NCBI RefSeq assembly: GCF_001462455.1 | Contig: NZ_LNTD01000229.1 | Location: 1-58,703 of the forward strand | Direction of reading: 5' to 3' | Origin: Cellulomonas sp. B6 | GTDB lineage: Bacteria > Actinomycetota > Actinomycetes > Actinomycetales > Cellulomonadaceae | Length of the DNA: 58,703 bases | Part shown: piece after piece, positions 2 through 19,932 of the stretch | Numbering within the stretch: the first letter of the stretch is position 1 | Layout: each line of letters starts with the position of its first letter | Made by a program: the position numbers and the translations under genes | The notes under the pieces: generated by a model | What the model was told of the DNA's origin: nothing | The model's input: only the letters and a program-made list of their open reading frames with translations | Databases searched by the model: none

Positions 2-1006
2 TCGCCCCCCGGGGCCGCCGCACCCGTCGCGGCGGCCCCGGGGGGCGACGGTGGGGCGGGGCACGACATGCCCGGCACGGCGGGCACGCACCACGGCGGA
101 GCGGGCGACGGCACGCGCGCGGCCGACCTGCTCGACCTCATGGCCGCACCCGACGACGCGTTCGTCGCGCGCGACGCGACGCTGCCGCCGGTCGGCGACG
201 GCACGACCCACCACGTCACGCTCGAGGTCACCGAGACCGTCCAGGAGGTCGCCCCCGGCGTCACGCGCACCGCCTGGACGTTCGGCGGCACCGCACCCGG
301 CCCGGTGCTGCACGGGCGCGTCGGCGACACGTTCGTCGTCACGCTCGTCAACGACGGCAGCCTCGGGCACTCGGTCGACTTCCACGCCGGGGCGCTCGCA
401 CCCGACGACGTGATGCGGACCATCGAGCCCGGCGAGACGCTCACGTACACGTTCCGCGCGACCCGCAGCGGCATCTGGATGTACCACTGCTCGACCATGC
501 CGATGAGCCTGCACATCGCCAACGGCATGTTCGGCGCGGTCGTCATCGACCCGCCCGGCCTGCCCGAGGTCGACCACGAGTACGTGCTCGTGCAGTCCGA
601 GCTGTACCTGGGCAAGCAGGGCGGCACCGCCGACGAGGCCGCGCTCACCGCGCAGCAGCCCACGCTGCTGACGTTCAACGGCTACGCCAACCAGTACCGT
701 GACCGACCCCTCGCGGTCCGCGCGGGCGAGCGCGTGCGCGTGTGGGTGCTCGACGCCGGGCCGAACCGGCCGTCGTCGTTCCACGTCGTCGGCGGGCAGT
801 TCGACACCGTCTACCGCGAGGGCGACTGGACCCTGCGCGACGGCGGGTCGACCGGGACCGGTGGCTCCCAGGTGCTCGCGCTCGCGCCCGCCGAGGGCGG
901 GTTCGTCGAGCTGACCTTCCCCGAGGCGGGCACGTACCCGTTCGTCACGCACGCCATGGGCGACGCCGAGCGCGGCGCGCAGGGACGGTTCCGCGTCACG
1001 GACTGA
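2..1006 (+). CDS. NirK-like copper protein with two visible cupredoxin domains, 5' end outside the window
   Basis: The reading frame is open from the window edge, so the true start lies upstream and the signal or membrane part is not visible. Two cupredoxin domains resemble copper nitrite reductase. HSVDFH (about 367-384) matches the NirK type-1 His, catalytic Asp and type-2 His. YHCS (about 484) followed by SLHIANGM gives the type-2 His, type-1 Cys, type-1 His and Met. The second domain keeps SSFHVVGGQ (about 774), with the last type-2 His. Where NirK has its second catalytic His (GDHAL), this protein reads RDRPL, so nitrite reductase activity is doubtful. It is probably extracytoplasmic, as such domains usually are. 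It lies just upstream of narK, but a promoter in between makes separate transcription likely. It could equally be a laccase-like copper oxidase. Confidence 0.75.
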   Translation, partial: SPPGAAAPVAAAPGGDGGAGHDMPGTAGTHHGGAGDGTRAADLLDLMAAPDDAFVARDATLPPVGDGTTHHVTLEVTETVQEVAPGVTRTAWTFGGTAPGPVLHGRVGDTFVVTLVNDGSLGHSVDFHAGALAPDDVMRTIEPGETLTYTFRATRSGIWMYHCSTMPMSLHIANGMFGAVVIDPPGLPEVDHEYVLVQSELYLGKQGGTADEAALTAQQPTLLTFNGYANQYRDRPLAVRAGERVRVWVLDAGPNRPSSFHVVGGQFDTVYREGDWTLRDGGSTGTGGSQVLALAPAEGGFVELTFPEAGTYPFVTHAMGDAERGAQGRFRVTD

Positions 1007-1036
1007 CGGCGACGACGCCACGCGGCCCGGGGGAGT

Positions 1037-1126
1037 TCTCACACCCCGGGCCGCCGGCGTGTGCGCGGAACGTTGCGGGCCGGTGACGCGGGTGCGCGTC
1101 CGGGCGAAACACGCGCTGCCTAGCGT
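1037..1126 (+). promoter_or_regulatory. narK promoter with shared nitrate-island box ladder
   Basis: TCTCACAC (1037-1044), AACGTT (1069-1074), GAAAC (1106-1110) and a TAGCGT -10 box (1121-1126) occur with exactly the same spacing before nirB (offset 8100). The implied leader is about 97 bases. Binding by GlnR and/or the NnaR-like protein of this locus is inference; I could not fit a full GlnR consensus. Confidence 0.6.
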
Positions 1127-1229
1127 CCTGCTCGACGCCGGCCCCACGCGGCGACGCCCGCCGGGCACCGCCCGGCCCCGACGCCCGACCCCGCGCAGCC
1201 CTGCACGGACCGACGCCCGGAGGCTCCCC

Positions 1230-2660
1230 GTGACCCAGACCCCGACGACCGACGCGCCCGCCGCCGCGGCGACCGCGCCCGCAGACCCCACCCCGGCACC
1301 CCCGACCGCGGCACCCGACGCCGAGGTCCTCACCCCCGCGGGCGTCGAGCCCGTGCTCGTCCGGCACCGCGGCCGCTGGCTGCACGGCTGGGACCCCGAG
1401 GCGCCCGAGCAGTGGCGTACCGCGGGGCGCGCCGTCGCGCGCCGCAACCTCGTGCTGTCGATCCTCGCGGAGTTCCTCGGGTTCGCGGTGTGGGCGCTGT
1501 GGAGCATCGTCGTGCCGCAGCTGCCGGCGGCCGGGTTCGCGCTGACCGCCGACCAGATGTTCTGGCTCATCGCGGTGCCGTCGCTCGTCGGCGCGACGCT
1601 GCGCATCCCGTACACGTTCGCCGTCCCCGTCTTCGGCGGGCGCAACTGGACCGTCGTGTCCGCGCTGCTGCTCCTGCTGCCCGCCGGTGCGTTGACGTGG
1701 GCCGTGCAACGACCCGACCTGCCGTTCGGCGCGCTGCTCGCGGTCGCCGCGCTCGCGGGCGTCGGCGGCGGCAACTTCGCGTCCTCGATGGCCAACATCT
1801 CGTTCTTCTACCCCGAGCGCGAGAAGGGCCGGGCGCTGGGCCTCAACGCCGCGGGCGGCAACGTCGGCACCGCGGCCGTGCAGCTCGCGGTGCCGCTGGT
1901 CATCGTCGGCGCGGCCGGCGTGCACCTCGAGCGGGCCGGTCTGATGTTCGTGCCGCTCGCGATCCTCGCCGCGGTGCTCGCGTGGCGGCTCATGGACAAC
2001 GTCAAGGACGCCGCGGCCGACCCGCGCGCGTACGGCTCGGCCGCGCGGCACCGGCACACGTGGGTCATCTCGTTCGTGTACATCGGCACGTTCGGCTCGT
2101 TCATCGGGTTCTCGGGGGCGTTCCCCACGCTGCTCAAGGCCCAGTTCCCCGACGTGACGCTCTCGATCGCGTTCCTCGGCGCGCTCGTCGGCTCGGTGGC
2201 TCGGCCGGCGGGCGGTGCGCTCGCCGACCGTCTCGGCGGCGCCCGCGTCACGGTCGCGGCGTTCGCGGTCATGGCGGTCGGGACGGTGTCGGCGATCCTC
2301 GCGCTGCGGGCCGGGTCGTTCCCGCTGTTCTTCGGCTCGTTCCTGCTGCTGTTCCTCGCCACGGGCGCCGGCAACGGGTCGGTGTACCGCATGATCCCGG
2401 CGGTGTTCCGGCACGGCGCGACCGACGACGCCGACCGCGGGCGGCGGGCCAAGGCCGCCGCGGGGTGCATCGGCATCGCGGGCGCGGTCGGGGCCGTCGG
2501 CGGGTTCCTGGTGCCGCGCGGGTTCGCGGCGTCGACCACCGCGACGGGCGGCATCGAGGCGGCGCTGTGGGTGATCGTCGCGACCTACGCCGTCATGGCC
2601 GCCACCACGTGGGTCGTGTACGCGCGCCGCGGCTCGGCGTTCGGCGACGCCGTCATCTGA
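1230..2660 (+). CDS. narK: Nitrate/nitrite MFS transporter, NarK/NNP family
   Basis: A 476-residue integral membrane protein of the major facilitator superfamily that should move nitrate (and possibly nitrite) across the cytoplasmic membrane. The NNP signature GGNFASSMANISFFYP lies near residues 180-195, and a second glycine-rich repeat, GAGNGSVYRMIPAVF, near 380. About 12 hydrophobic segments follow a Pro/Thr/Ala-rich cytoplasmic N-terminus of roughly 65 residues. GTG 1230 is chosen because GGAGG (1219-1223) sits 6 bases upstream; the open frame extends further up but without such a site. The stop overlaps the nitrate reductase ATG by one base, so import and reduction are translationally coupled. 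The long hydrophilic N-terminus is the only unusual point. Confidence 0.93.
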   Translation: MTQTPTTDAPAAAATAPADPTPAPPTAAPDAEVLTPAGVEPVLVRHRGRWLHGWDPEAPEQWRTAGRAVARRNLVLSILAEFLGFAVWALWSIVVPQLPAAGFALTADQMFWLIAVPSLVGATLRIPYTFAVPVFGGRNWTVVSALLLLLPAGALTWAVQRPDLPFGALLAVAALAGVGGGNFASSMANISFFYPEREKGRALGLNAAGGNVGTAAVQLAVPLVIVGAAGVHLERAGLMFVPLAILAAVLAWRLMDNVKDAAADPRAYGSAARHRHTWVISFVYIGTFGSFIGFSGAFPTLLKAQFPDVTLSIAFLGALVGSVARPAGGALADRLGGARVTVAAFAVMAVGTVSAILALRAGSFPLFFGSFLLLFLATGAGNGSVYRMIPAVFRHGATDDADRGRRAKAAAGCIGIAGAVGAVGGFLVPRGFAASTTATGGIEAALWVIVATYAVMAATTWVVYARRGSAFGDAVI

Positions 2661-5600
2661 TGACGGCCACCACCACCGCGCGGGACGAGCGCACGGCCAC
2701 GACGCAGGTCGCGACCGTGTGCTCGTACTGCGGCGTCGGCTGCGGGATCGTCCTCGACGTCGGGGACGACGGCACGGTGCGCCGCGCGAGCGGCGACCGG
2801 TCGCACCCCGCGAACGCCGGGCGCCTGTGCACCAAGGGCGCGACGAGCGCGACGATGCTCGCGGCCGGCGGACGCGTGACGACCGCGCTCGTGCGGCCCG
2901 AGCGCGGCACCGAGCCCGTGCCGGCCGACGTCGACGTCGCGGTCGCGGACGTCGCCCGCCGGCTGCGCGCGATCCTCGACCGCGACGGTCCCGACGCGAT
3001 CGCGCTGTACGTGTCGGGCCAGCTGAGCATCGAGGCGCAGTACCTGGCGAACAAGCTCGCCAAGGGGTACCTGCGCACGCGGTGGATCGAGTCGAACTCG
3101 CGGCTGTGCATGGCGAGCGCGGGCACGGGCTACAAGCTGTCGCTCGGTGCGGACGGCCCGCCGGGGTCGTACGACGACCTCGACCACGCCGACGTGTTCC
3201 TGCTCGTCGGCGCGAACATGGCCGACTGCCACCCCGTGCTCTTCCTGCGGCTGCTCGACCGCGTCAAGGCCGGCGCGAGGCTCATCGTCGTCGACCCGCG
3301 GCGCACGGCCACGGCCGAGAAGGCGGACCTGTTCCTGCAGGTCCGGCCGGGCAGCGACCTCGCCCTGCTCAACGGGCTGCTGCACCTGCTCGTCGAGGCC
3401 GGCGCGGTCGACGAGGAGTTCGTCGCCGAGCACACCGAGGGCTGGGACGCGATGCCCGCGTTCCTCGCCGACTACCCGCCGGACGTCGTCGAGCGGCTCA
3501 CGGGCGTGCCCGCGGCCGACCTGCGCGCGGCCGCCGCGATGATCGCCGGTGCGGGCGACTGGGTGTCGTGCTGGACGATGGGCCTCAACCAGTCGACCCA
3601 CGGCACCTGGAACACCAACGCCCTGGTCAACCTGCACCTCGCGACCGGTGCGATCGGGCGCCGCGGGAGCGGCCCGTTCTCGCTCACCGGCCAGCCCAAC
3701 GCGATGGGCGGGCGCGAGATGGGCTACATGGGCCCCGGGCTGCCCGGTCAGCGCAGCGTGCTCGACGCCGACGACCGCGCGTTCTGCGAGGAGCTGTGGG
3801 ACCTCCCGCCCGGGACGATCCGCACCGAGGTCGGCACCGGCACGGTCGACATGTTCCGCCGCATGGCCGACGGCGAGATCCGCGCCGCGTGGGTGATCTG
3901 CACCAACCCGGTCGCGTCGGTCGGCAACCGCCGCACCGTGATCGAGGGTCTCGAGCGCGCCGAGCTCGTCGTCACGCAGGACGTGTTCGCCGACACCGAG
4001 ACCAACGCGTACGCCGACGTCGTGCTGCCGGCCGCGCTGTGGTCCGAGGCCGACGGCGTCATGGTGAGCTCCGAGCGCACCATGACGCTCGCGCGGCGGG
4101 CGCTGGCCGCACCGGGGCAGGCGCTGCCGGACTGGCAGCTCGTCGCGCGCGTCGCGACCGCCATGGGCTTCGACGGGTTCGCGTACGCGTCGTCGCAGGA
4201 GGTCTTCGACGAGCTGCGACGCGCGAGCAACCCGCGCACGGGCTACGACCTGCGGGGCGTCAGCTACGAGCGGCTGCGCCGCGAGCCCGTGCAGTGGCCC
4301 TGCGCGTCCGCCGACGCGCCCGCGCGCAACCCCGTGCGCTACCTCAACGACGGCGCGCACCAGCCGCTGCTCACCCGCCCCGACGGCACGCGCCCGCGCC
4401 TGGCGTTCCCCACGCCGAGCGGTCGTGCGGTCTTCCACGCGCGCCCGCACGTCGACCCCGCCGAGCTGCCGGACGACGACCACCCGTTCTGGTTCACGAC
4501 GGGCCGCGTGCAGCACCAGTGGCACACCATGACCAAGACCGGCAAGGTCCCGGCGCTGAACCGGCTCGAGCCCGGCCCGTTCGTCGAGGTGCACCCCGAG
4601 GACGCCGCGCGGCTCGGGCTCGTCGAGCGGGCGCCCGTCGAGGTCGCGTCGCGGCGCGGCCGCGCGGTGCTGCCGGTCGTCGTGACCGACCGCGTGCGCC
4701 CCGGCACGCTGTTCGCCCCGTTCCACTGGAACGACGTGTTCGGCGAGTACCTCGCCGTCAACGCCGTCACCCACGACGCGGTCGACCCGCTGTCGCTGCA
4801 GCCCGAGCTCAAGGCGTGCGCGGTCGCGCTCACGCCCGTCGTGGGCGTGGCCGACGGCACGCGGGCGTCCGACGCCGTGGCGGGTGCCGCCGTCGACGAC
4901 GCCCCCGCGGGCCGGGCGGGGGAGCCCGGGCCCGGCGCACGGGCCCTCGACGGCCCCGCCACGATGCGCGCGCTCGCCGCGGCGCTCGGCGTCGACGACG
5001 TCGCGCCACCCGCGCTGGGCGACGACGAGCGCCGCTACCTCGCGGGGTTCCTCGCGGGCCTGGGACGCGGTGCCGACGCCGCCGGCGGGACGCCCGTCCT
5101 GCCGACGTCGGCACCCCTGCGCGGCGACCACGCGCTGTGGGTCGACGGCGTGCTGGCCGGGATGTTCTCGCGCACGGCCCCGCCGGCCGTCCCACCCGCA
5201 CCCGCACGGACCGTCACCGTGCTGTGGGCGTCTCAGACGGGCACGGCCGAGGAGGTCGCCGGCGTGGTCGCGCAGCGCCTCGCGGACGCCGGGCACACCC
5301 CCCGGGTCGTCGCCATGGACGACGCGCTCGCGGACCTGCCGCGTCGCGGTGACGTCGTGCTGGTCACGAGCACGTTCGGCGACGGCGACGCGCCCGACAA
5401 CGGCACCGCGCTGTGGGAGGCGCTCGCCGACCCGCAGGCGCCGTCGTTCGGCGGCGCGCGGTTCGCCGTGCTCGCGCTCGGCGACCCGACGTACGACCGG
5501 TTCTGCGGCCACGGCCGGCGCCTCGACCACCGGCTCGCCGAGCTCGGCGCGCAGCGGCTGGTCGAGCGGCTCGAGCGCGAGCCCGGCGACGACACGGCGG

Positions 5601-6925
5601 TCACGACGTGGCTCGACGGGCTGCTCGCGGCGCTGACCGGCGGCACCGACGACGCCCCGGGACCGCGCGACGTCGACGGGCCGCCCGGCCGGGCGCCCGC
5701 GCGCACGGCACCCGCCGCGCTACCCACAGCGCCACCGACAGCACCACCGGCAGCGTCACCGACCGCGTCGTCGGACGCCGCGCCACCGGCGCACGCGACC
5801 CGGCGCCACCCCGGCGCGGCGCGCCTCGTCGGGCGCCGCCGCCTGGGCGCCCCCGGTTCGGCCAAGGAGGTCCGCGAGATCCTGCTCGACACCGCGGGCT
5901 CGCCGCTGCCGGTGCCGTACGCGGCCGGCGACGCGCTCGCGGTGCGTCCGCTCACGGCCGCGCCGCTCGTCGAGGAGTGGTGCGCGGCGACGGGCCTGGA
6001 CCCCGGCGCGACCGTCGAGCACGACGGCGCGACGCTCGCGCTGGGCGACGCGCTGCGCACGCGCCTCGACCTCGGGCGCCCGACGCCCGCGCTGCTGCGG
6101 TTCGTCGCCGAGCGGACCACGCGCACCGCGGGCGACGAGCTGCGCCGCCTGCTGCGCACGGGCGACCGCGCGGCCCTCGACGCGTGGACGTGGGACCGCG
6201 GCGTCGTCGACGTCGTCGCGGCGCACCCGCTCGACGCGACGCCCCAGGAGTGGGTCGACGCGCTGCGCACGCTGCAGCCCCGTGCCTACTCGATCTCCTC
6301 GAGCCCGCTGGTCGACCCCGAGCGGGTGCGGCTCACGGTGTCGGTCGTGCGCTGGGCCGGACCGGACGGCCGCGCGCGCGGCGGGACGTGCTCGACGTAC
6401 CTCGCCGACGCACCGGCCGACGCCGAGGTCGCCGTGCACGTGCAGCCCAGCGCGCACTTCCACCCGCCGCAGGACCCGGACGCCCCCGTCGTCATGATCG
6501 GCCCGGGCACGGGCGTGGCGCCGTTCGTCGGGTTCCTGGCCGAGCGTGCGGCGCGCGGCGACCGGGGCGAGAGCTGGCTGGTGTTCGGCGAGCAGCACGC
6601 CGCGACGGACTTCTGGTACCGCGACGAGCTCGCCGCCTGGCAGGACGCCGGCGTGCTCACGCGCCTCGACGCGGCGTTCTCGCGCGACCAGCGGCAGAAG
6701 GTGTACGTGCAGGACCGCCTGCGCGAGCACGGGCCCGCGCTGTGGTCGTGGCTCGAGCGCGGCGCGCACGTGTACGTGTGCGGCGACGCCCGGCGCATGG
6801 CGCCCGACGTCGACGCGGCGCTGCGGGACGTCGTGGCGCGCGAGGGACGGCTCGACGCCGACGCGGCCGCGGCGTACCTCCGGCGGCTGGCCGCCGCGCG
6901 GCGGTACGTGCGCGACGTGTACTGA
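2660..6925 (+). CDS. Fused assimilatory nitrate reductase / CysJ-like NADPH flavoprotein
   Basis: This 1421-residue protein carries a complete electron chain from NADPH to nitrate. Residues 1 to about 710 are a molybdopterin bis-MGD catalytic unit: C21, C24, C28 and C57 bind a 4Fe-4S cluster, and C150 in NSRLCMASA aligns with the molybdenum-ligating Cys of Nap/Nas. A Pro/Ala-rich linker follows. A flavodoxin (FMN) domain starts near 851 (WASQTGTAEE). An FAD domain with RAYSISSSP lies near 1207, then an NADPH-binding domain with GPGTGVAPF near 1280 and VCGDARRM near 1373, ending in the aromatic VRDVY typical of CysJ-type reductases. Fusions of this kind are known in actinobacteria under the name bifunctional nitrate reductase/sulfite reductase flavoprotein. 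The ATG overlaps the narK TGA by one base. It should be cytoplasmic, as no Tat signal is visible. Confidence 0.92.
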   Translation: MTATTTARDERTATTQVATVCSYCGVGCGIVLDVGDDGTVRRASGDRSHPANAGRLCTKGATSATMLAAGGRVTTALVRPERGTEPVPADVDVAVADVARRLRAILDRDGPDAIALYVSGQLSIEAQYLANKLAKGYLRTRWIESNSRLCMASAGTGYKLSLGADGPPGSYDDLDHADVFLLVGANMADCHPVLFLRLLDRVKAGARLIVVDPRRTATAEKADLFLQVRPGSDLALLNGLLHLLVEAGAVDEEFVAEHTEGWDAMPAFLADYPPDVVERLTGVPAADLRAAAAMIAGAGDWVSCWTMGLNQSTHGTWNTNALVNLHLATGAIGRRGSGPFSLTGQPNAMGGREMGYMGPGLPGQRSVLDADDRAFCEELWDLPPGTIRTEVGTGTVDMFRRMADGEIRAAWVICTNPVASVGNRRTVIEGLERAELVVTQDVFADTETNAYADVVLPAALWSEADGVMVSSERTMTLARRALAAPGQALPDWQLVARVATAMGFDGFAYASSQEVFDELRRASNPRTGYDLRGVSYERLRREPVQWPCASADAPARNPVRYLNDGAHQPLLTRPDGTRPRLAFPTPSGRAVFHARPHVDPAELPDDDHPFWFTTGRVQHQWHTMTKTGKVPALNRLEPGPFVEVHPEDAARLGLVERAPVEVASRRGRAVLPVVVTDRVRPGTLFAPFHWNDVFGEYLAVNAVTHDAVDPLSLQPELKACAVALTPVVGVADGTRASDAVAGAAVDDAPAGRAGEPGPGARALDGPATMRALAAALGVDDVAPPALGDDERRYLAGFLAGLGRGADAAGGTPVLPTSAPLRGDHALWVDGVLAGMFSRTAPPAVPPAPARTVTVLWASQTGTAEEVAGVVAQRLADAGHTPRVVAMDDALADLPRRGDVVLVTSTFGDGDAPDNGTALWEALADPQAPSFGGARFAVLALGDPTYDRFCGHGRRLDHRLAELGAQRLVERLEREPGDDTAVTTWLDGLLAALTGGTDDAPGPRDVDGPPGRAPARTAPAALPTAPPTAPPAASPTASSDAAPPAHATRRHPGAARLVGRRRLGAPGSAKEVREILLDTAGSPLPVPYAAGDALAVRPLTAAPLVEEWCAATGLDPGATVEHDGATLALGDALRTRLDLGRPTPALLRFVAERTTRTAGDELRRLLRTGDRAALDAWTWDRGVVDVVAAHPLDATPQEWVDALRTLQPRAYSISSSPLVDPERVRLTVSVVRWAGPDGRARGGTCSTYLADAPADAEVAVHVQPSAHFHPPQDPDAPVVMIGPGTGVAPFVGFLAERAARGDRGESWLVFGEQHAATDFWYRDELAAWQDAGVLTRLDAAFSRDQRQKVYVQDRLREHGPALWSWLERGAHVYVCGDARRMAPDVDAALRDVVAREGRLDADAAAAYLRRLAAARRYVRDVY

Positions 6926-7069
6926 ACCGGTGAGCGGGCCCCGACCCGGCCCGGACGTCCGCCGGCCGGTCAGACGGGGACCACTCGCGGGAACACGGCA
7001 CCGCGGCCGTGCGTTGGCCCGGGCGTGCCCGCCCGCCCGGTGCGCACCCCCGACCCCGCTGGAGGTGCC

Positions 7070-7426
7070 GTGCGCGGCCGCAGGACCCGTGTCGTCGTCG
7101 CGACGTTCGTCGTGCTCGGGCTCATCGGCTCGCTCGCGATCGGGCTCGTCGCCGGGACGGGCGGCGGCGGTCGTGTCGAGGTGCCGTCGTCCGGGCCGTG
7201 GGCCGTGCTGGTCGGCCCCGAGCACCCGACGGTCGCGTCGTGCACCGACGACCCCGCCGTGGAGCGCGTCTCGGTGCCCGACGGTCAGGAGGGCGGTGCG
7301 CTCGCGGTCGTGCTGTACGCCGACGCGGCCCGCCCCGACCTCGACCGCGTGCTCGCGTGCCTGCTGCGCGACCCGGGCGACGCGCAGGTGCAGGTCGTGC
7401 AGGTGTCGCGCGGCGTGCAGGGCTGA
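7070..7426 (+). CDS. Small membrane-anchored or secreted protein, unknown function
   Basis: I do not recognise this 118-residue protein. GTG 7070 is preferred over GTG 7025 because GGAGG (7061-7065) lies 4 bases before it. The product begins with a short Arg-rich stretch followed by one hydrophobic segment (about residues 7-27), so it is exported or anchored with its C-terminus outside. Two cysteines (in VASCTDD and LACLLRD) could form a disulfide. It lies 144 bases downstream of the nitrate reductase, on the same strand, and converges on the molybdoenzyme gene. It may be the last gene of the nitrate operon, but nothing in the sequence assigns it a role. Between 7427 and 7495, ACGGGCGTC and GACGCCCGT could pair across a 25-base loop as a weak terminator. 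Confidence 0.7.
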   Translation: MRGRRTRVVVATFVVLGLIGSLAIGLVAGTGGGGRVEVPSSGPWAVLVGPEHPTVASCTDDPAVERVSVPDGQEGGALAVVLYADAARPDLDRVLACLLRDPGDAQVQVVQVSRGVQG

Positions 7427-7495
7427 TCGCGTCGAGCACGGACCGCCCCGCGCACGGGCGTCCGGTGCGGGACGCGGCGTCGGGGGCGACGCCCG

Positions 7496-9082
7496 TCAGG
7501 CGACCGTGACGTCGAGCGTGTCGTAGCCCGTCGCGCCGTCGGGGACGACGCCGGCCGGGACGCCCGTCTGCGGCCCCTCGGGGTCCCACGCGCGGACCGC
7601 GAGCACGTGGTCGCCCGGCGTGGCGTCCGGCCACGTCCACCGCCACTGCCGCCAGGCGTCGACGCCGCCGTCGGCGGCGAGGTCGGCGTCCTGCCACGGC
7701 CCGTCGTCGACGCGCACCTGGACGCGCTCGACCCCGCGGTGCTGCGCCCACGCCGTGCCGGCGACCACGACCTCACCGGCGGTGATGTCCGCGCCCCGGC
7801 GGGGCAATTCGATGCGCGACTGCGTCTTCACGGGTCCGCGCTCGGACCAGCCGCGCTGCGTCCAGTACGCGCTGACCCGGTCGAACCGCGTGACCTCGAG
7901 CTCGGTGACCCACTTGGTCGCGGACACGTAGCCGTACAGCCCGGGCACGACCATCCGGACGGGGAAGCCGTGCTCGGGCGGCAGGGGGGCGCCGCCCATC
8001 GCGACGGCGAGCAGCGCGTCGCGGCCGTCGGTGAGCGCCTCGAGCGGCGTGGAGGCGGTGAACCCGTCGACGCTGCGCGAGAGCACCATGTCGGCGTCCG
8101 CGGTCGGCACGGCCCGCGCGAGCACCTCCCGCACCGGCAGGCCGAGCCACCGCTGGTTGCCCACCAGGTCGCCCCCCACGGCGTTGGACACGCACGCGAG
8201 CGTCACCCACGCCTCGACGAGCTCGGAGGCGAGCAGCTCGTCCCACGTGAGCACGACCTCCTGCTCGACCAGGCCGCGCACGCGCAGGCGCCAGCCGCTC
8301 GGGTCGACCTGCGGCACGACCAGCGCGGTGTCGATGCGGTAGAAGTCGGCGGGTGGCGTGACCCACGGCCCGACGCCCTCGACCTGCACGTCCGGGGGCG
8401 GCGTCGGTGCCGGGCGGGCTGCGGCGGGCAGGCGCAGGGCGCTGCGGGCCGCCTGCGCGCCGCGGGCACCCGTCGCGGCGACGCGCCCGGCCACGGCGGC
8501 GGCGACCCCGAGCACGGACGCCAGCGCGGTGAGCCGGAGGAACGCACGGCGGTCCGGCGACGGCCGGGGGAGGACGGCGTCGGCGTCGGTTCGGGCGTCG
8601 ACGCGGGACGGGGGCGGGGGCAGACGACCCACCAGGGTGCTCAGCGTCCACAGGCCCGCGACGGTGCCGACCACCGCGGGTGCCGGTGCGAGCGTCCCGG
8701 CGTCGGGCCGCAGGGTCGCGGCGAGCGCCGCGACGCCTCCGAGCGCGACGACGAGCACGGCACCGACCGGCCACCGGCGACGCGCCGCGACGCCCGCGAC
8801 GGCCGCGAGGCCCGCGAGCACGAGCGCCTCGCCGATGCCGAGCACGAGCTTGTCGGCGGTGCCGAACGCGCGCACCGCGGCGTCCTTGAGCCACGCCGGG
8901 GTCGCGTCGACGAACGCCGCGCCCACCGCGACGAGCGGGTCGGTCGACGGTCCCGTGACGATCGCGACCAGCGCACCCGCCCCGACGGTCACCGCGCCGG
9001 CCGCGAGGCCGGCGAGCGCCGCGAGCGCGTCGGGGGTGCGCGGACGGTGCGTGCGCGCGGGCGGCACCGCGGGGGTCGTCAT
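7496..9082 (-). CDS. Membrane-anchored molybdopterin oxidoreductase, sulfite oxidase family
   Basis: A 528-residue protein with about four or five hydrophobic segments in its first 200 residues, then an extracytoplasmic sulfite-oxidase-type molybdenum domain and an Ig-like dimerisation domain at the C-terminus. C297 in LACVSN aligns with the conserved cysteine ligand of molybdenum in this family. The ATG at 9082 is chosen because a TAGCGT box lies 7 bases upstream on this strand; the frame stays open further but only into the nirB regulatory region. It is divergent from nirB and converges on the small gene at 7070. The substrate is not evident: sulfite, an S- or N-oxide or a protein residue are all possible. 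Its position suggests shared molybdenum-cofactor supply with the nitrate reductase, which is inference. Confidence 0.85.
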   Translation of the reverse strand: MTTPAVPPARTHRPRTPDALAALAGLAAGAVTVGAGALVAIVTGPSTDPLVAVGAAFVDATPAWLKDAAVRAFGTADKLVLGIGEALVLAGLAAVAGVAARRRWPVGAVLVVALGGVAALAATLRPDAGTLAPAPAVVGTVAGLWTLSTLVGRLPPPPSRVDARTDADAVLPRPSPDRRAFLRLTALASVLGVAAAVAGRVAATGARGAQAARSALRLPAAARPAPTPPPDVQVEGVGPWVTPPADFYRIDTALVVPQVDPSGWRLRVRGLVEQEVVLTWDELLASELVEAWVTLACVSNAVGGDLVGNQRWLGLPVREVLARAVPTADADMVLSRSVDGFTASTPLEALTDGRDALLAVAMGGAPLPPEHGFPVRMVVPGLYGYVSATKWVTELEVTRFDRVSAYWTQRGWSERGPVKTQSRIELPRRGADITAGEVVVAGTAWAQHRGVERVQVRVDDGPWQDADLAADGGVDAWRQWRWTWPDATPGDHVLAVRAWDPEGPQTGVPAGVVPDGATGYDTLDVTVA

Positions 9083-9089
9083 GCGCGCC

Positions 9090-9095
9090 ACGCTA
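9090..9095 (-). promoter_or_regulatory. -10 box of the molybdoenzyme gene, leaderless type
   Basis: TAGCGT on the minus strand ends 7 bases before the ATG at 9082, so transcription probably starts at or next to the start codon. Confidence 0.6.
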
Positions 9096-9136
9096 GGCCG
9101 CGGGCACGGCGCGCGCCACGGCGCACGGGACGAAGG

Positions 9137-9226
9137 TCTCACACGCGAGGCCCGCCCGGTGAGAGGGAAACGTTCCGACGCCGAAACGGCGGCGCACCCC
9201 TGCCGGAAACGGCCGGTTCGTAGCGT
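9137..9226 (+). promoter_or_regulatory. nirB promoter with shared nitrate-island box ladder
   Basis: TCTCACAC (9137-9144), AACGTT (9169-9174), GAAAC (9206-9210) and TAGCGT (9221-9226) repeat the narK promoter with identical spacing. An extra GAAAC (9183-9187) and an inverted partner GTGAGA (9159-9164) to TCTCAC are found only here. The leader is about 35 bases. Confidence 0.6.
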
Positions 9227-9267
9227 CGAGGCACGCCCTCGCCCCACCCGGACCTCCTGGAGGCCCC

Positions 9268-11826
9268 ATGGACCCCCGTCATCTCGTCGTCGTCGGCGGC
9301 GGCATGGTCGCCCAGCGCCTCGTCGAGGCCCTGCGCGACCGTGACACCGCCGGCACGTGGCGCGTCACGGTCCTCGCCGAGGAGCCGCGCCGCCCCTACG
9401 ACCGCGTCGCGCTCACGAGCTACTTCGCGGGCCGCACCCCCGACGACCTCGCGCTCGGCGACGCCGCGCTGTGGGACGACCCGCTCGTCACGCTCGTGCG
9501 CGGCGACGCCGTCACCGTCGTCGACCGCGCGGCCCGGACCGTCACGGCCGCCTCGGGCCGCACCTACGCCTACGACCACCTGGTCCTCGCGACGGGGTCG
9601 TCGGCGTGGGTGCCGCCCCTGGAGGGTGCCGACCTCGAGGGCGTGTTCGTGTACCGCACGCTCGACGACGTCGCGGCCCTGCGCGGCCACGTCACGCGCC
9701 TGGCCGAGCAGCGGCCCGTGCGCGGGGTCGTGCTCGGCGGCGGTCTGCTGGGCCTGGAGGCCGCGGGCGCCCTGGACGCGCTCGGCGCCCGCGCGACCGT
9801 GCTGCAGGTCGACACGCACCTCATGTCCGCGCAGGTCGACCTCGGTGGCGGCGAGGCGCTGCGGCGGCTGATCAACCGGCTCGGCATCGGCGTGCGCACG
9901 CAGGCCAGGACGACGCGTGTGCTGCCGCACCGTCGCGGGGGCGTCGGCCGCGTCGAGCTCGCCGACGGCACGCGGCTCGACGCCGACGTCGTGGTCGTGG
10001 CGGCGGGCGTGCGTCCGCGCGACGAGCTCGCGCGCACCAGCGGCCTCGAGATCGGCCCGCGCGGCGGCGTGGTCGTCGACGACACGTGCCTCACGGCCGA
10101 CCCGCACGTCTCGGCGGTCGGTGAGGTCGCGTGCATCCAGGGCGTGTGCATCGGGCTCGTCGCGCCCGGGTACACGATGGCCGAGGTGACGGTCGACCGG
10201 CTGCTCGGCGGCCGGGCCGCGTACCCCGGTGCCGACACCGCGACCAAGCTCAAGCTCGCGGGTGTCGACGTCGCGAGCTTCGGCGACGCGTTCGCCCGCA
10301 CGCCGGGCGCGCTCGAGGTCGTGTGGGCCGACCCGGTCGCGGGCGTCTACAAGAAGCTCGTGGTGTCCGACGACGCCCGCACGCTCCTGGGGGGCGTGCT
10401 CGTCGGCGACGCGAGCGCCTACGCGAGCCTGCGCCCCATGGTCGGCCGCGAGCTGCCCGGCGACCCGGGCGCGTTCCTGCTGCCCGCCGGGGGAGCTGGC
10501 GCACCCGACCTCGAGCTGCCCGACGAGGCCACGGTCTGCTCGTGCAACAACGTCACCGCCGGGTCGATCCGGCACGCCGTGACCGACGAGGGCTGCCACG
10601 ACCTCGGCGCCGTCAAGGCGTGCACGCGCGCCGGCACCAGCTGCGGGTCCTGCCTGCCGCTGGTCAAGAAGCTCGTGACCACCGAGCTCGCGGCTCTCGG
10701 CGTGAGCGTCAGCACCGCGCTGTGCGAGCACTTCGCGCTGTCGCGGGCCCAGCTCTACGACGCCGTGCGCGTCGCCGGCCTACGGACCTTCACCGAGGTC
10801 GTCGAGCGGTTCGGCACGCACGGGCGCGGCTGCGACCTCTGCCGCCCCGCGGTCGCGTCGATCCTCGCGACCACGGCCCCCGCGCACGTGCTCGACGGCG
10901 AGCGCGCGGCCCTGCAGGACACCAACGACCACGTCATGGCGAACCTGCAGAAGGACGGGTCGTACTCGGTGGTGCCGCGCATGCCCGGCGGCGAGGTCAC
11001 GCCCGAGGGGCTCATCGTGGTCGGCGAGGTCGCGCGCGACTTCGGGCTCTACACCAAGGTCACGGGCGGCCAGCGCATCGACATGTTCGGCGCGCGCATC
11101 GACCAGCTCCCGCTGATCTGGCGGCGGCTGGTCGACGCGGGCTTCGAGTCCGGGCACGCGTACGGCAAGTCGCTGCGCACCGTGAAGTCGTGCGTCGGGT
11201 CGACGTGGTGCCGGTTCGGCGTGCAGGACTCCGCGGCGCTCGCGGTCATGCTCGAGCTGCGCTACCGCGGCCTGCGCTCGCCGCACAAGATCAAGCTCGG
11301 CGTCTCGGGCTGCGCGCGCGAGTGCGCCGAGGCCCGCGGCAAGGACGTCGGCGTCATCGCGACCGACAAGGGCTGGAACGTGTACGTCGGCGGCAACGGC
11401 GGCTTCACGCCCCGCCACGCGCGTCTGCTCGCCGAGGACCTCGACACCGAGGCGCTCGTGCGGACCATCGACCGCTTCCTGCTCTACTACGTGCGCACGG
11501 CCGACCGCCTGCAGCGCACCGCGCCGTGGATCGAGGAGGTCGAGGGCGGCCTCGAGGGCGTGCGTGCCGTCGTCATGGACGACGCGCTGGGCATCTGCGC
11601 CGACCTGGACGCGCAGATGGACGAGCACGTCGCGCAGTACGAGGACGAGTGGCGCGCGACGCTCGACGACCCCGAGAAGCTCCGGCGGTTCGCGTCGTTC
11701 GTCAACGCCCCCGACGTGGCCGACCCGTCCCTGGCGTACGTGCCCGAGCGCGGCCAGGTCCGCCCCGCCACCGCCGACGAGCGCGCCGTGCTCGTCGCCG
11801 GCACCACCCTGGAGGTCCGCTCGTGA
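9268..11826 (+). CDS. nirB: Assimilatory nitrite reductase large subunit NirB
   Basis: An 852-residue cytoplasmic NAD(P)H-dependent nitrite reductase large subunit that reduces nitrite to ammonium with six electrons. The order is FAD/NAD(P)H-binding Rossmann folds (VVVGGGMVAQRL at about 6-17), a BFD-like 2Fe-2S domain (C424, C426, C452, C459, C462 region), then ferredoxin-like and siroheme/4Fe-4S halves with C642, C648, C682 and C686 in the KSCVGSTWC and SGCARECAE motifs that hold the cluster-siroheme pair. Length matches the family. ATG 9268 has a GGAGG five bases upstream. It is first in a five-gene operon whose next three genes serve siroheme and regulation; the stop overlaps the nirD GTG by 4 bases. 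Confidence 0.96.
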   Translation: MDPRHLVVVGGGMVAQRLVEALRDRDTAGTWRVTVLAEEPRRPYDRVALTSYFAGRTPDDLALGDAALWDDPLVTLVRGDAVTVVDRAARTVTAASGRTYAYDHLVLATGSSAWVPPLEGADLEGVFVYRTLDDVAALRGHVTRLAEQRPVRGVVLGGGLLGLEAAGALDALGARATVLQVDTHLMSAQVDLGGGEALRRLINRLGIGVRTQARTTRVLPHRRGGVGRVELADGTRLDADVVVVAAGVRPRDELARTSGLEIGPRGGVVVDDTCLTADPHVSAVGEVACIQGVCIGLVAPGYTMAEVTVDRLLGGRAAYPGADTATKLKLAGVDVASFGDAFARTPGALEVVWADPVAGVYKKLVVSDDARTLLGGVLVGDASAYASLRPMVGRELPGDPGAFLLPAGGAGAPDLELPDEATVCSCNNVTAGSIRHAVTDEGCHDLGAVKACTRAGTSCGSCLPLVKKLVTTELAALGVSVSTALCEHFALSRAQLYDAVRVAGLRTFTEVVERFGTHGRGCDLCRPAVASILATTAPAHVLDGERAALQDTNDHVMANLQKDGSYSVVPRMPGGEVTPEGLIVVGEVARDFGLYTKVTGGQRIDMFGARIDQLPLIWRRLVDAGFESGHAYGKSLRTVKSCVGSTWCRFGVQDSAALAVMLELRYRGLRSPHKIKLGVSGCARECAEARGKDVGVIATDKGWNVYVGGNGGFTPRHARLLAEDLDTEALVRTIDRFLLYYVRTADRLQRTAPWIEEVEGGLEGVRAVVMDDALGICADLDAQMDEHVAQYEDEWRATLDDPEKLRRFASFVNAPDVADPSLAYVPERGQVRPATADERAVLVAGTTLEVRS

Positions 11827-12242
11827 CGACGCTCGACGCCCCCACGACCACGTGGCTGACCGTGTGCCGGCTCGCGGACCTCGCACCCGAGCGCGGTGCC
11901 GCGGCGCTCGTGCCCGACCGGGTGGACGGTGCACCGACGCTCACGCAGGTCGCGGTGTTCCGGCTGCTCGACGACACGGTGCACGCCGTGCAGCAGCACG
12001 ACCCGTTCAGCGACGCGCACGTCCTGGCCCGCGGGATCGTCGGGACGCGCCGCGTCGACGACGCCGACGTGCCGACCGTCGCCTCGCCCATGTACAAGCA
12101 GGTGTTCGACCTGCGCACGGGTGCGTGCCTCGACGTCGCGGGCAAGACGCCGGTCGCGGGGCACGGCGCGGACCTGCGGACGTGGGGCGTGCGCGTCGTC
12201 GACGGCGACGTGCAGCTCGCGGTGCTCGGCGGTGCGGGGTGA
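11823..12242 (+). CDS. nirD: Nitrite reductase small subunit NirD
   Basis: A 139-residue Rieske-fold small subunit that pairs with NirB. The fold is recognisable (about residues 10-130), but the Rieske cluster ligands are absent: the first ligand pair position reads QQHDPFS and the second PMYKQVF. This loss is normal for NirD, whose role is structural. GTG 11823 overlaps the nirB stop by 4 bases and the next GTG overlaps this stop by 4 bases, so the operon is tightly coupled. No independent promoter is visible. Confidence 0.92.
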   Translation: MTTLDAPTTTWLTVCRLADLAPERGAAALVPDRVDGAPTLTQVAVFRLLDDTVHAVQQHDPFSDAHVLARGIVGTRRVDDADVPTVASPMYKQVFDLRTGACLDVAGKTPVAGHGADLRTWGVRVVDGDVQLAVLGGAG

Positions 12243-13528
12243 CGGCGCTGCTGGGAATCGAGCTCGCGGGTCGCGCCGTGCTCGTCGTCGGTGGGGGACC
12301 GGTCGCGGCACGACGCGCGCAGGCGCTGGCCGACGAGGGCGCGCTCGTGCACGTCGTCGCGCCGCACGTGTGCGAGCCCCTCGCCGACCTGGTCGTCGCG
12401 GGCCGCGCCCGCTGGTCCGACCGCGAGGTCGTCGAGACCGACCTCGACGACGTGTGGCTCGTGCACACCGCGACGGGCGAGCGTGCGGCGGACGCCGCGG
12501 TCGTCGCGTGGGCCACCGCCCGGCGGGTGTTCTGCGTCGACGCCGGCGGTCCGCGCCGCGCGGCCGCGGGCACGGCCCGCACGCCCGCCACCACGCGCAC
12601 GGGTGACGTGCTCGTCGGCGTCGTGTCGGCCGTCGGCGCCGACCCGCGGCGCAGCGTCGAGGTGCGCGACCGGCTCGTCGCGCACCTGCACGCCGGCGAG
12701 GTCGACCTGCGCCGGCGCCGTCGCGGCGCGGGCCGGGGCCGCGTCGTGCTCGTCGGCGGGGGACCGGGCGACGTCGACCTGCTCACGGTCGCCGGACACC
12801 GCGCCCTCGCCGAGGCGGACGTCGTGGTCGCCGACCGCCTCGGCCCGACCGACGTGCTCGACCAGCTGCCCGCCGACGTGGAGGTCGTCGACGTCGGCAA
12901 GTCGCCCGGGCACCACCCCGTGCCGCAGGACGAGATCAACCGGGTCCTCATCGAGCACGCGCAGCGCGGGCGTGTCGTCGTGCGACTCAAGGGCGGGGAC
13001 CCGTTCGTCTACGGCCGCGGCGGCGAGGAGGTGCTCGCGTGCCGCGCCGCGGGCGTGCCGGTGAGCGTCGTGCCGGGTGTCAGCAGCGCGTTCGCTGCCG
13101 CCGCGGCGGCCGGGGTGCCGCTGACGCACCGCGGCGTCGTGGGCGCGGTGCACGTCATGAACGGCACCGACGGCTGGTCGGCCGCCGCGCTCACGGGCCT
13201 GCGTGACCGCTCGTGCACCGTCGTCGTGCTCATGGGCGTGGCCGCGCTGCCCGGGCTGGTGCGCGACGCGCTGGCCGGTGGCGTCGACCCCGACGTGCCC
13301 GTCGCGGTGGTCGAGCGCGCGACGCTGCCCGACCAGCGCGTGACGCGCGCGCCGCTGCACGAGGTCGCGGCTGTCGCGGCCGCGCGCGGCGTGCGCGCGC
13401 CGGCCGTGGTCGTCGTCGGTCACGTCGCGGCGCCCGACCTGCTGACGCCCACGGCGGCGGACCCCGCACCGGAGCTCGTGGACGAGGTGGACGCCACGCC
13501 CCCGGCGCCGGTGACAATGGACGCGTGA
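12239..13528 (+). CDS. CysG-like precorrin-2 dehydrogenase / uroporphyrinogen-III methyltransferase
   Basis: A 429-residue two-domain siroheme enzyme. Residues 1 to about 155 are a precorrin-2 dehydrogenase Rossmann domain (VLVVGGGPVAARRA). From about 165 the SUMT/CobA methyltransferase follows, with VLVGGGPGDVDLLT near 170 and the signature VVRLKGGDPFVYGRGGEE near 245-265. It should methylate uroporphyrinogen III at C2 and C7 with SAM and oxidise the product to sirohydrochlorin; iron insertion is left to the CbiX-type protein two genes on. The N-terminal domain is shorter than in enterobacterial CysG and probably lacks chelatase activity, which fits a separate chelatase. It overlaps both neighbours by 4 bases. 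It supplies the siroheme needed by NirB. Confidence 0.9.
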   Translation: MTALLGIELAGRAVLVVGGGPVAARRAQALADEGALVHVVAPHVCEPLADLVVAGRARWSDREVVETDLDDVWLVHTATGERAADAAVVAWATARRVFCVDAGGPRRAAAGTARTPATTRTGDVLVGVVSAVGADPRRSVEVRDRLVAHLHAGEVDLRRRRRGAGRGRVVLVGGGPGDVDLLTVAGHRALAEADVVVADRLGPTDVLDQLPADVEVVDVGKSPGHHPVPQDEINRVLIEHAQRGRVVVRLKGGDPFVYGRGGEEVLACRAAGVPVSVVPGVSSAFAAAAAAGVPLTHRGVVGAVHVMNGTDGWSAAALTGLRDRSCTVVVLMGVAALPGLVRDALAGGVDPDVPVAVVERATLPDQRVTRAPLHEVAAVAAARGVRAPAVVVVGHVAAPDLLTPTAADPAPELVDEVDATPPAPVTMDA

Positions 13529-14646
13529 GCGCACAGATGATCGACCAGACCCTGGCCGGTTGCGTCGTGCTCGTCACGGCCGACCGGCGCTCCTCCGAGC
13601 TGCGGGCCGCGCTCGAGCGGCGCGGCGCGAGCGTGCGGCACGCGGCCGCGCTCGGCATGGTGCCGCACACCGACGACGCGCTGCTGCTCGAGCGCACGCG
13701 CAGCGTGCTCGCCGAGCCGCCCGACACCGTCGTCGTCACGACCGGCATCGGCTTCCGCGGCTGGATCGAGGCGGCGGACGCCGCGGGTGTCGCCGACCGT
13801 CTGCTCGAGGTGCTCGCGGGCACCCGGATCGTCGCGCGCGGCCCCAAGGCGCGAGGGGCGATCCAGGCCGCCGGGCTGAGCGCCGACTGGGTCGCCGAGT
13901 CCGAGACGAGCGCCGAGATCGCCGAGACGCTCCTTGACGAGGGCGTCGCGGGCCGTGACATCGTCATCCAGCACCATGGCGCCGGTGCCGACGGCCTCGA
14001 CGAGGCGTTCGCGCTGGCCGGGGCGCGCGTGCGCAGCCTCGTCGTGTACCGGTGGGGGCCGCCGCCCGACCCCGCGCTGGTGCGGGACTCGACGCGCGCG
14101 GTCGCCGACGGCGAGGTCGACGCCGTGGTCTTCACCTCGGCGCCCGGCGCGGCGGCGTGGCTCGACGCCGCGCGCGACGCCGGCGCGCTCGACGACGTGC
14201 TGGGCCGGCACCGCACGGGCGCGGTGGTGTTCGCGGCCGTAGGTCCGGTGACCGCCAAACCGCTGCAGGAGGCCGGCATCGAGCCGCTCGTGCCCGACCG
14301 CGGCCGCCTCGGCTCGCTCGTGCGCGCGGTCGTCACGCATTACGGCGGCATCGAGGCCCTCGACACGGTCGCCGGCCCGCTGCGCGTGCACCGCGCGGCC
14401 GCCGTGCTCGACGGTCGCGTGCTGCCGCTGTCGCGCACGGGCCTGGAGGTGCTGCGGCTGCTCGCGCACGCACGCGGCTCGGTCGTCCCGCGCGACCAGG
14501 TGCTCGCGGCGCTGCCGGGCGACTCGTCCGACCCGCACGCGGCCGAGGTCGCGATCGCGCGGCTGCGCGACGCGAGCGGCAGCCGCGCCCTCGTGCGCAC
14601 CGTCGTCAAGCGCGGGTACCGCCTCGAGCTTCAGGAGCAGTCATGA
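13525..14646 (+). CDS. HemD-like / winged-helix regulator, NnaR type
   Basis: A 373-residue protein in two parts. Residues 1 to about 270 have the uroporphyrinogen-III synthase (HemD) fold (VVTTGIGFRGW, VVFTSAPGAAAW). About 290-373 form an OmpR-type winged helix (LSRTGLEVLRLLAHARG, then VRTVVKRGYRLEL). This architecture matches NnaR of Streptomyces and its mycobacterial relatives, reported to act with GlnR on nitrate/nitrite assimilation genes. Its place inside the nirBD-siroheme operon supports the same role here, and the likely targets are the matched narK and nirB promoters. It may also act in tetrapyrrole synthesis as a true HemD. GTG 13525 overlaps the previous stop by 4 bases; a later ATG at 13537 is possible. 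Confidence 0.85.
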   Translation: MSAQMIDQTLAGCVVLVTADRRSSELRAALERRGASVRHAAALGMVPHTDDALLLERTRSVLAEPPDTVVVTTGIGFRGWIEAADAAGVADRLLEVLAGTRIVARGPKARGAIQAAGLSADWVAESETSAEIAETLLDEGVAGRDIVIQHHGAGADGLDEAFALAGARVRSLVVYRWGPPPDPALVRDSTRAVADGEVDAVVFTSAPGAAAWLDAARDAGALDDVLGRHRTGAVVFAAVGPVTAKPLQEAGIEPLVPDRGRLGSLVRAVVTHYGGIEALDTVAGPLRVHRAAAVLDGRVLPLSRTGLEVLRLLAHARGSVVPRDQVLAALPGDSSDPHAAEVAIARLRDASGSRALVRTVVKRGYRLELQEQS

Positions 14647-15380
14647 CCACCACCCCCGCGCCCGTGCTCGTCGGCTGCTCGCACGGCACCGACAGCCACG
14701 CGGGCCGCGCCGCGATCGCCTCGATCCTCGTCGACCTGGCGGACCTGCGGCCCGAACTCGACGTGCGCGAGGCGTTCGTCGACGTGCAGCAGCCCGAGCT
14801 GCCCGACGTCGTGGCGGACGCCGTCGTCGACGCCCCGACGGTCGTGGTGCCGCTGCTGCTGTCGACGGGCTTCCACGTGAAGACCGACGTCGCCGAGGCC
14901 GTCGACCGCGCCGGTGCCGCCGCGGGCCGGCCGATGGGTCCCGACCCGCGTCTCGTGGAGATCCTCGCCGACCGGCTCGCGGCCGCGGGGCTGCGCGACG
15001 ACGACGCGGTCGTCGTCGCGGCGGCCGGGTCGAGCGACCCCGAGGCCGCGACCGCGGTGCGCGAGGTCGTCGCGGGCCTGGCCGAGCGGCTGGGTCGACC
15101 CGTGACGGTCGGGTACGGCGCGGGCGCGCACCCGCGCGTGCCCGTCGCGATCGCCGACGCGCGCACCACACTGGCCCCGGGCGGGCGCGTCGTCGTGGCG
15201 TCGTACCTGCTGGCTCCCGGCTTCTTCCTCGACCGTGTGCGCGAGGCCGGCGCCGACGTCGTGGCGGCGCCGCTGGCACCGGACGTGCGGCTGGCGCAGA
15301 TCGCGCTCGACCGGTTCGACGAGGTCAGCGCGCAGGCGTCGGCGACGTGGGTGCCGAGCGCGTCGCGCGCGGGAGCGTGA
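14643..15380 (+). CDS. Sirohydrochlorin ferrochelatase, CbiX/SirB family
   Basis: A 245-residue chelatase-family protein. GCSHGT near residue 12 includes H14, the metal-handling histidine of CbiX, and the protein has the usual two-lobe length (ALLLSTGFHVKTD-like second-lobe entry near 77-87, VVVASYLLAPGFF near 185). It should insert iron into sirohydrochlorin to finish siroheme for NirB. ATG 14643 overlaps the preceding stop by 4 bases, so it is the last gene of the nirB operon. Cobalt chelation is an alternative in the family, but the operon context favours iron. Downstream, CCGGTGC (15414-15420) can pair with GCACCGG (15441-15447) as a weak terminator. Confidence 0.88.
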   Translation: MTTTPAPVLVGCSHGTDSHAGRAAIASILVDLADLRPELDVREAFVDVQQPELPDVVADAVVDAPTVVVPLLLSTGFHVKTDVAEAVDRAGAAAGRPMGPDPRLVEILADRLAAAGLRDDDAVVVAAAGSSDPEAATAVREVVAGLAERLGRPVTVGYGAGAHPRVPVAIADARTTLAPGGRVVVASYLLAPGFFLDRVREAGADVVAAPLAPDVRLAQIALDRFDEVSAQASATWVPSASRAGA

Positions 15381-16490: not shown

Positions 16491-16565
16491 TGGTGGGCGA
16501 TACTGGGATCGAACCAGTGACCTCTTCCGTGTCAGGGAAGCGCGCTACCGCTGCGCCAATCGCCC
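16491..16565 (-). tRNA. tRNA-Val (GAC), CCA encoded
   Basis: Read on the minus strand, GGGCGAT pairs with ATCGCCC as the acceptor stem, the anticodon loop CTGACAC gives GAC, and the T arm has GGTTCGATCC. The discriminator is A (16494) and CCA is encoded at 16493-16491. Confidence 0.95.
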
Positions 16566-16580
16566 GCGTGGGGTGCTACG

Positions 16581-16651
16581 AGGTGGAGACGGGATTCGAA
16601 CCCGTGTATACGGCTTTGCAGGCCGCTGCCTCGCCTCTCGGCCACTCCACC
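16581..16651 (-). tRNA. tRNA-Cys (GCA)
   Basis: The acceptor stem GGTGGAG/CTCCACC closes a cloverleaf with anticodon GCA. The discriminator is U, the expected identity base for tRNA-Cys. CCA is not encoded. It is the middle gene of a three-tRNA cluster. Confidence 0.95.
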
Positions 16652-16701
16652 GCTGAGACCGCAGTCCACGACGGCGGTGACGCCGAAGGGGATAGCCTCC
16701 G

Positions 16702-19926: not shown

Positions 19927-19932
19927 CCCGCA

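Follow-up and report, generated by a model that had tools for sequence, protein, structure and literature searches.

A conserved ladder of predicted NnaR and GlnR sites precedes narK and nirB in Cellulomonas sp. B6 and its relatives

Introduction

Why do the promoters of narK and nirB carry the same ladder of short sequence boxes, and which regulators would read it? The question is raised by a stretch of 58,703 nucleotides (nt) from Cellulomonas sp. B6 (contig NZ_LNTD01000229.1; genome 4.04 Mb), which we refer to as the window and which encodes a nitrate/nitrite transporter (narK) and the large subunit of nitrite reductase (nirB). Judged by NirB, the strain is closest to Cellulomonas iranensis among named relatives (98%). 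The original prediction, made from the letters of the window, held that the two promoters share boxes at identical spacing and proposed that two regulators, for example GlnR and an NnaR-like protein, are bound at a fixed distance from the -10 hexamer. Here, we describe the elements of this ladder and show that they keep their order and distances, that they stand ahead of narK and nirB, and that the genome encodes both regulators. As judged from sequence, both promoters are very probably NnaR-GlnR composite activator promoters.

Both regulators have been described in other actinomycetes. NnaR of Streptomyces coelicolor is an activator of narK, nirB, nirA and nasA, and its binding to the nirB promoter is cooperative with that of GlnR (reviewed in PMC10704036). 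The NnaR motif of Mycobacterium smegmatis, CTCAC(a/c)-16N-(t/g)GTGag, adjoins a GlnR motif that is similarly placed in the majority of transcripts (PMC6277429), and the NnaR search pattern applied to Mycobacterium abscessus was CTCAC[A/C][Cg]-13..16-GTGAG (PMC11162112). In the GlnR activation complex, four DNA-binding domains are arranged head to tail, and nasA carries two GlnR boxes 1 base pair (bp) apart (PMC10704036). At other GlnR promoters, the half-sites a1, b1 and b2 are conserved and a2 is dispensable, with the a2 of amtB located at the -35 element (PMC5826061). The amtB gene is controlled by GlnR in other actinomycetes (PMC10704036, PMC5826061).

Results

Two promoters in the window share one ladder

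All four boxes that had been placed at a constant offset of 8100 bases were confirmed, namely TCTCACAC at 1037 and 9137, AACGTT at 1069 and 9169, GAAAC at 1106 and 9206, and TAGCGT at 1121 and 9221. An earlier hand count of about 60 agreeing positions in the 100 that start at 1031 and 9131 proved exact, with 60/100 identical positions that are divided over the two halves as 31/50 and 29/50. The flanking 50-bp segments agree at 15/50 and 17/50 positions before the ladder and at 20/50 and 15/50 after it. When 1031-1130 was slid ungapped over the window, the mean agreement was 31.3 with a standard deviation of 4.7, and the placement at 9131 ranked top after the self-match, the runner-up reaching 52. 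The likeness of the two promoters is far from chance. In the whole genome, TCTCACAC-N20..30-AACGTT occurs twice, at the two window ladders, compared to 0 for the control. These ladders are also the two perfect genome matches of a composite, defined as a fixed 50-bp pattern with 16 specified bases, for which the next best match has 2 mismatches; at up to 3 mismatches, there are 21 forward and 13 reverse matches versus 12 and 2 for the control. A genome scan for equally good spaced sites, which had been suggested as a check, returned only the window's two sites at 0-1 mismatches. The narK GTG at 1230 is the sole in-frame ATG, GTG or TTG within 1131-1300, and the start codon of nirB is ATG 9268; the ladder thus precedes both genes at unequal distances to the start codon.

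Read against the published motifs, the ladder resolves into the following predicted elements, for which the counts of matches refer to the matrix scan of relatives described below.

1038..1043, plus strand: narK promoter, left half of the NnaR box, CTCACA, fitting the published CTCAC(a/c)
1060..1065, plus strand: narK promoter, right half of the NnaR box, TGTGCG, 16 bp past the left half (published (t/g)GTGag; column conservation)
1072..1076, plus strand: narK promoter, GlnR half-site a1, GTTGC, overlapping AACGTT (consensus gTnAc-n6-GaAAc; conservation)
1083..1087, plus strand: narK promoter, GlnR half-site b1, GTGAC (sequence; conservation)
1095..1099, plus strand: narK promoter, degenerate a2 position at the -35 position, placed by spacing
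1106..1110, plus strand: narK promoter, GlnR half-site b2, GAAAC (GAAAC or GAAAT in 34/34 narK matches)
1121..1126, plus strand: narK promoter, -10 hexamer TAGCGT, 15 bp from the b2 start (distance 15 in 33/34 narK matches)
9138..9143, plus strand: nirB promoter, left half of the NnaR box, CTCACA (published motif)
9158..9165, plus strand: nirB promoter, right half of the NnaR box, GGTGAGAG, read as TGAGAG at 16 bp (1 mismatch) or GGTGAG at 14 bp (perfect)
9172..9176, plus strand: nirB promoter, GlnR half-site a1, GTTCC, the commonest a1 (29/65 nirB matches)
9183..9187, plus strand: nirB promoter, GlnR half-site b1, GAAAC (GAAAC in 22/65 and GTAAC in 25/65 nirB matches)
9195..9199, plus strand: nirB promoter, degenerate a2 position at the -35 position, placed by spacing
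9206..9210, plus strand: nirB promoter, GlnR half-site b2, GAAAC (GAAAC or GAAAT in 60/65 nirB matches)
9221..9226, plus strand: nirB promoter, -10 hexamer TAGCGT, 15 bp from b2 in the 60 nirB matches having b2

The predicted NnaR box of narK spans 1038-1065 as CTCACA-16N-TGTGCG, in which C replaces the less conserved a, and that of nirB can be read as CTCACA-16N-TGAGAG or as CTCACA-14N-GGTGAG. Among the 99 nirB and narK matches in relatives, 10 to 12 of the 12 NnaR letters agree, and GTG occupies columns 23-25 in 62/65 nirB and 34/34 narK matches. Describing the nirB right half-site as CTCAC-16N-GTGAG alone was dropped, as column statistics put the conserved register two bases rightward. A search of the strain's own genome for CTCAC-16N-GTGAG with up to 2 mismatches was uninformative (2198 forward matches versus 1005 in the control), and the degenerate palindrome alone, at up to 1 mismatch, gave 98 forward and 95 reverse matches versus 47 and 49. 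We therefore claim no further NnaR target, though the genome may contain a few additional ones.

The predicted GlnR part can be separated from the predicted NnaR box

The published GlnR consensus had seemed a poor fit to these promoters, a difficulty that is resolved when the sites are read as a1-b1-(weak a2)-b2 with degenerate members. The module is GTTCC-n6-GAAAC-n18-GAAAC at nirB and GTTGC-n6-GTGAC-n18-GAAAC at narK. Thus, gTnAc-n6-GaAAc is found in the 11-bp register at both promoters, each with deviations from consensus, and the second GlnR box is reduced to b2, 23 bp past b1. Both sequences have the layout of a GlnR-activated promoter, in which GlnR sites replace the -35 element and b2 lies near the -10.

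The amtB promoters of the genus provide a comparison. The a1-b1 module is present in 28/30 amtB loci, and a third half-site follows 22 bp past b1 in 28/28 (23 GAAAC, 3 GTAAC and 2 GAAAT); the strain's own amtB reads GTCAC-n6-GTAAC-n17-GAAAC. In these 28 loci, an NnaR box in the register seen at nirB and narK is absent (3 to 8 of 12 letters), and 26/28 have no palindrome of similar quality throughout the preceding 150 bp. The amtB promoters therefore have the GlnR module but lack the NnaR box, in support of treating the ladder as two units, one for NnaR and one for GlnR.

Order and spacing are conserved in relatives

Relatives were represented by 80 named loci of Cellulomonas and related genera (1.65 Mb), in which the strict composite has 53 matches versus 0 for the backwards pattern. 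A matrix, whose training set comprised 53 sites among those it afterwards found, gave 99 matches in 65 loci at an effective threshold of 12 bits. Every one of the 99 immediately precedes nirB (65) or narK (34), and no match in the reversed-sequence control scored above 2.6 bits. A second matrix, built solely from the 65 nirB sites and applied with a cut-off of 8 bits, recovered the same 34 narK sites and 16 others, with its reversed control at or below 3.9 bits; 14 of the 16 precede nirB or narK, and 2 are on the opposite strand (L114, L069) without such a gene behind them.

Because the matrix and composite scans fix the spacing, both gaps were left free in a further analysis, which covered 79 of the 80 loci for nirB and 54 for narK, the remainder being too short upstream or lacking a narK match. 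The pair of a 16-bp palindrome gap and a 6-bp junction to a1, (16, 6), reaches 16/19 in 66/79 nirB and 47/54 narK regions, compared to averages of 1.50 and 0.51 across the 188 alternatives. Next come (16, 17), with 47 nirB and 16 narK regions, and (18, 4), with 31 and 14; both reflect the (16, 6) sites, read one 11-bp step further along or shifted within GTGTG. A lack of conserved spacing before narK and nirB in close relatives, named beforehand as a result that would refute a shared layout, was not observed. From the left half-site to b2, the distance is 67 or 68 bp (30 and 30 of the 65 nirB matches; 17 and 17 of the 34 narK matches), and TANNNT lies 15 bp from b2 in 60/65 nirB and 33/34 narK matches; the spacing to the -10 is therefore fixed but for one optional bp between b1 and b2. 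As negative controls, the 400 bp before the nnaR frame, largely coding sequence, contain at most 11 of the 16 anchors in 74 loci, and the 400 bp upstream of nasN, also largely coding, at most 13 of 16 in 52 loci.

Several groups differ in parts of this layout. Demequina loci L113, L115, L116, L117, L118 and L123 have nirB and nnaR and no ladder above 12 bits, with a weak ladder before narK in L117 and L118; control may differ in this genus, or the promoter may lie elsewhere. In the narK promoters of a Cellulomonas subgroup (L055, L056, L057, L059, L060, L061 and L064), a1 is GAACC and not GTTNC. The NnaR box and b2 are kept there, so a1 may be dispensable at narK. The narK promoters of Cellulosimicrobium (L094, L096, L101, L103, L104, L106, L108 and L114) have CTCACAC at the a1 position. 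This is either a duplicate NnaR half-site or a GlnR a-site (GTCACAC) altered at a single base, and it may be a hybrid site.

The layout recurs elsewhere in the class

Across 394 genomes of the class, the composite with at most 1 mismatch gave 67 rows outside the strain's own genome versus 25 in the control, and 30 of the 49 such loci inspected have narK or nirB downstream of the motif. We also assembled 32 hand-chosen genomes spread over families, comprising 54 upstream regions (27 nirB and 27 narK; 27 of 30 loci used per gene, the last three of each being weak matches). This distant set leans against the ladder, since none of its genomes matched the composite in the 394-genome scan. Within it, (16, 6) is the commonest gap pair and reaches at least 16/19 in 4/27 nirB and 8/27 narK regions, compared to means of 0.07 and 0.19. 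The same ladder is present at the narK-nnaR loci of a large-genome family (f26), presumably Streptomyces. In three of the narK promoters of this family (L302-L304), the palindrome gap is 14 bp and the 6-bp junction to a1 is kept.

Genes behind the ladders and the two regulators

The genes that the two promoters would serve are listed below.

1230..2660, plus strand: narK, nitrate/nitrite transporter (MFS_1; NarK/NarU models below curated cut-offs; GTG start after GGAGG)
2660..6925, plus strand: NasN-like fused nitrate reductase, directly after narK (molybdopterin, flavodoxin, FAD and NAD domains)
9268..11826, plus strand: nirB, nitrite reductase large subunit (TIGR02374 above cut-off)
11823..12242, plus strand: nirD (Rieske_2)
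12242..13528, plus strand: siroheme synthase-like gene (NAD_binding_7 and TP_methylase)
13213..14646, plus strand: nnaR open frame (HEM4 2.3e-36; Trans_reg_C 1.3e-8)
14643..15380, plus strand: CbiX-type chelatase

The last five genes, from nirB to the chelatase, are consecutive from 9268 to 15380. In the nnaR product, a HemD domain is fused to an OmpR-type DNA-binding domain, and the protein scores 403.5 bits against NCBIfam NF005568 (cut-off 273); the match begins at residue 110, and the real start is probably near 13525. The glnR gene lies on another contig of the genome, and its product has both the atypical GlnR receiver domain (GlnR_1st, 3.7e-43) and Trans_reg_C (1.9e-30). The closest solved sequence to this GlnR is chain O of 8hih, which we take to be the GlnR activation complex. 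The NasN domain architecture has been described previously (PMC11162112).

Among the neighbouring features, a membrane-fused sulfite-oxidase-like molybdopterin protein (7496-9082, minus strand; Oxidored_molyb) is encoded divergently from nirB, with which it has the intergenic region in common, and a multicopper oxidase-like gene (68-1003, plus strand; Cu-oxidase_3 and Cu-oxidase_2) immediately precedes narK at the edge of the contig. A tRNA-Val, tRNA-Cys and tRNA-Gly cluster is found at 16491-16773, and a separate tRNA-Val at 19855-19928.

Discussion

Our analysis suggests how the narK and nirB promoters could respond to two signals at once. The pairing of GlnR with an NnaR-like protein is supported at the sequence level by the published motifs, by the location of nnaR within the nirB cluster and by the presence of glnR in the genome. 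Binding, activation, operon structure and the AND logic of the two inputs would follow by homology to the Streptomyces and mycobacterial systems. In this model, GlnR would report nitrogen limitation and bind the head-to-tail half-sites a1, b1, (a2) and b2, with a2 standing in for the missing -35 element and b2 ending 10 bp ahead of the -10. Given these positions, we propose that bound GlnR recruits RNA polymerase. NnaR, the HemD-like protein of the nirB cluster, would bind the palindrome beside a1 as a co-activator, so that narK-nasN and nirB-nirD-siroheme-nnaR-cbiX would be switched on jointly only under nitrogen shortage plus the NnaR signal. As nnaR lies behind its own target promoter, NnaR may also reinforce its own operon by feedback.

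Several observations weigh against this composite-promoter reading. Among the 80 named loci, 15 have no match above 12 bits, 8 of which show a weaker match ahead of nirB or narK, and 7 have no site above 8 bits (L077, L093, L098, L113, L115, L116 and L123; L093 offers only ~100 bp of upstream sequence). Most of the 54 distant upstream regions also lack the ladder, perhaps in part since the gene used for the search does not always head its operon. Within the window, the right half-site of nirB fits best at the 14-bp rather than the 16-bp spacing, and the narK half-sites GTTGC (a1) and GTGAC (b1) depart from the GlnR consensus. Among narK relatives, a1 is poorly kept, with GTT in only 10/34. As a qualification, the fixed distance to the -10 that had been proposed is not absolute, in that b1 to b2 is 22 or 23 bp, evenly split among relatives.

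The half-sites could instead belong to another OmpR-family regulator, with MtrA or PhoP binding a1-b1-b2 in place of GlnR or against it. The MtrA motif is nearly identical to that of GlnR and MtrA binds the mycobacterial nirB promoter (PMC6277429), which also counts against our assignment, and PhoP competes at Streptomyces amtB (PMC5826061). However, the same module heads amtB in this genus, a gene under GlnR control in other actinomycetes, and a competing binder would add to GlnR and not replace it; we consider MtrA or PhoP improbable as the main occupant. An ECF sigma factor promoter would offer a different account of GAAAC followed by CGTC, a combination that is frequent among relatives, in place of b2 and a housekeeping -10. 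ECF promoters typically have -35 motifs ending in AAC, and their usual spacer is ~16 bp. In the ladder, however, GAAAC and CGTC are 13 bp apart, the half-site of the strain's own amtB has no CGTC at that distance, and TANNNT begins 15 bp past b2 in 60 nirB and 33 narK matches, making an ECF promoter very improbable here.

The identity of 60/100 between two promoters of one genome could also reflect a recent duplication or gene conversion, with the spacing under no functional constraint. The longest runs of agreement, however, are the boxes themselves, and many spacer bases differ. In addition, the spacing is kept at both promoters across many species while the spacers diverge, and other families of the class have the layout too. 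These observations already contradict a recent copying event, whose likelihood we regard as close to negligible.

The composite-promoter reading can be extended to the geometry of the complex. The NnaR right half, a1, b1, a2 and b2 stand in one continuous 11-bp register, and it is conceivable, though we hold it to be rather unlikely, that NnaR is stacked as a fifth subunit directly on the tetramer of head-to-tail GlnR, so that both proteins make up a single mixed OmpR-type array holding RNA polymerase, as opposed to NnaR being a separate upstream activator. The 6-bp junction between the NnaR box and a1 is kept in six distant regions that have a palindrome gap of 14 or 15 bp (L255, L286, L302, L303, L304 and L310), the scores for L286 and L310 being ties. 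Against such a junction rule, the window nirB, its closest relatives (GTGAGAG in 3/65) and the L285 narK promoter fit better with the right half moved two bases.

This kind of promoter is already described in Streptomyces and mycobacteria, and no paper on NnaR in Cellulomonas was found in the library of papers that was searched. As in our promoters, the M. smegmatis NnaR palindrome lies near a GlnR motif, similarly spaced in most cases; M. smegmatis transcripts show leaderless features (PMC6277429), whereas the leaders predicted here, from starts near 9233 and 1133, are ~35 nt for nirB and ~97 nt for narK. M. abscessus has just two predicted NnaR sites, one at the narK3 operon and the other at nasN (PMC11162112); here, there are also two, at narK-nasN and nirB, and nasN directly follows narK. 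Compared to the S. coelicolor NnaR system, the window pattern has a palindrome gap of 16, in contrast to 14 in the probable Streptomyces promoters L302-L304. The GlnR part resembles amtB of S. coelicolor and nas of Amycolatopsis, in which a1, b1 and b2 are conserved and a2 is weak or dispensable (PMC5826061). Unlike the window promoters, Streptomyces amtB has three GlnR boxes, and the available part of the same paper mentions no NnaR box.

Our analysis extends this kind of promoter to Cellulomonas and allied genera and contributes the measured spacing and the junction rule. From sequence alone, it assigns to these genera a regulon of two promoters for nitrate assimilation. The resulting spacing rule, with a palindrome gap of 16, a junction of 6, a1-b1 of 11, b1-b2 of 22 or 23 and b2 to the -10 of 15, can serve for predicting NnaR-GlnR promoters in other actinomycetes and for testing the way in which NnaR contacts GlnR.

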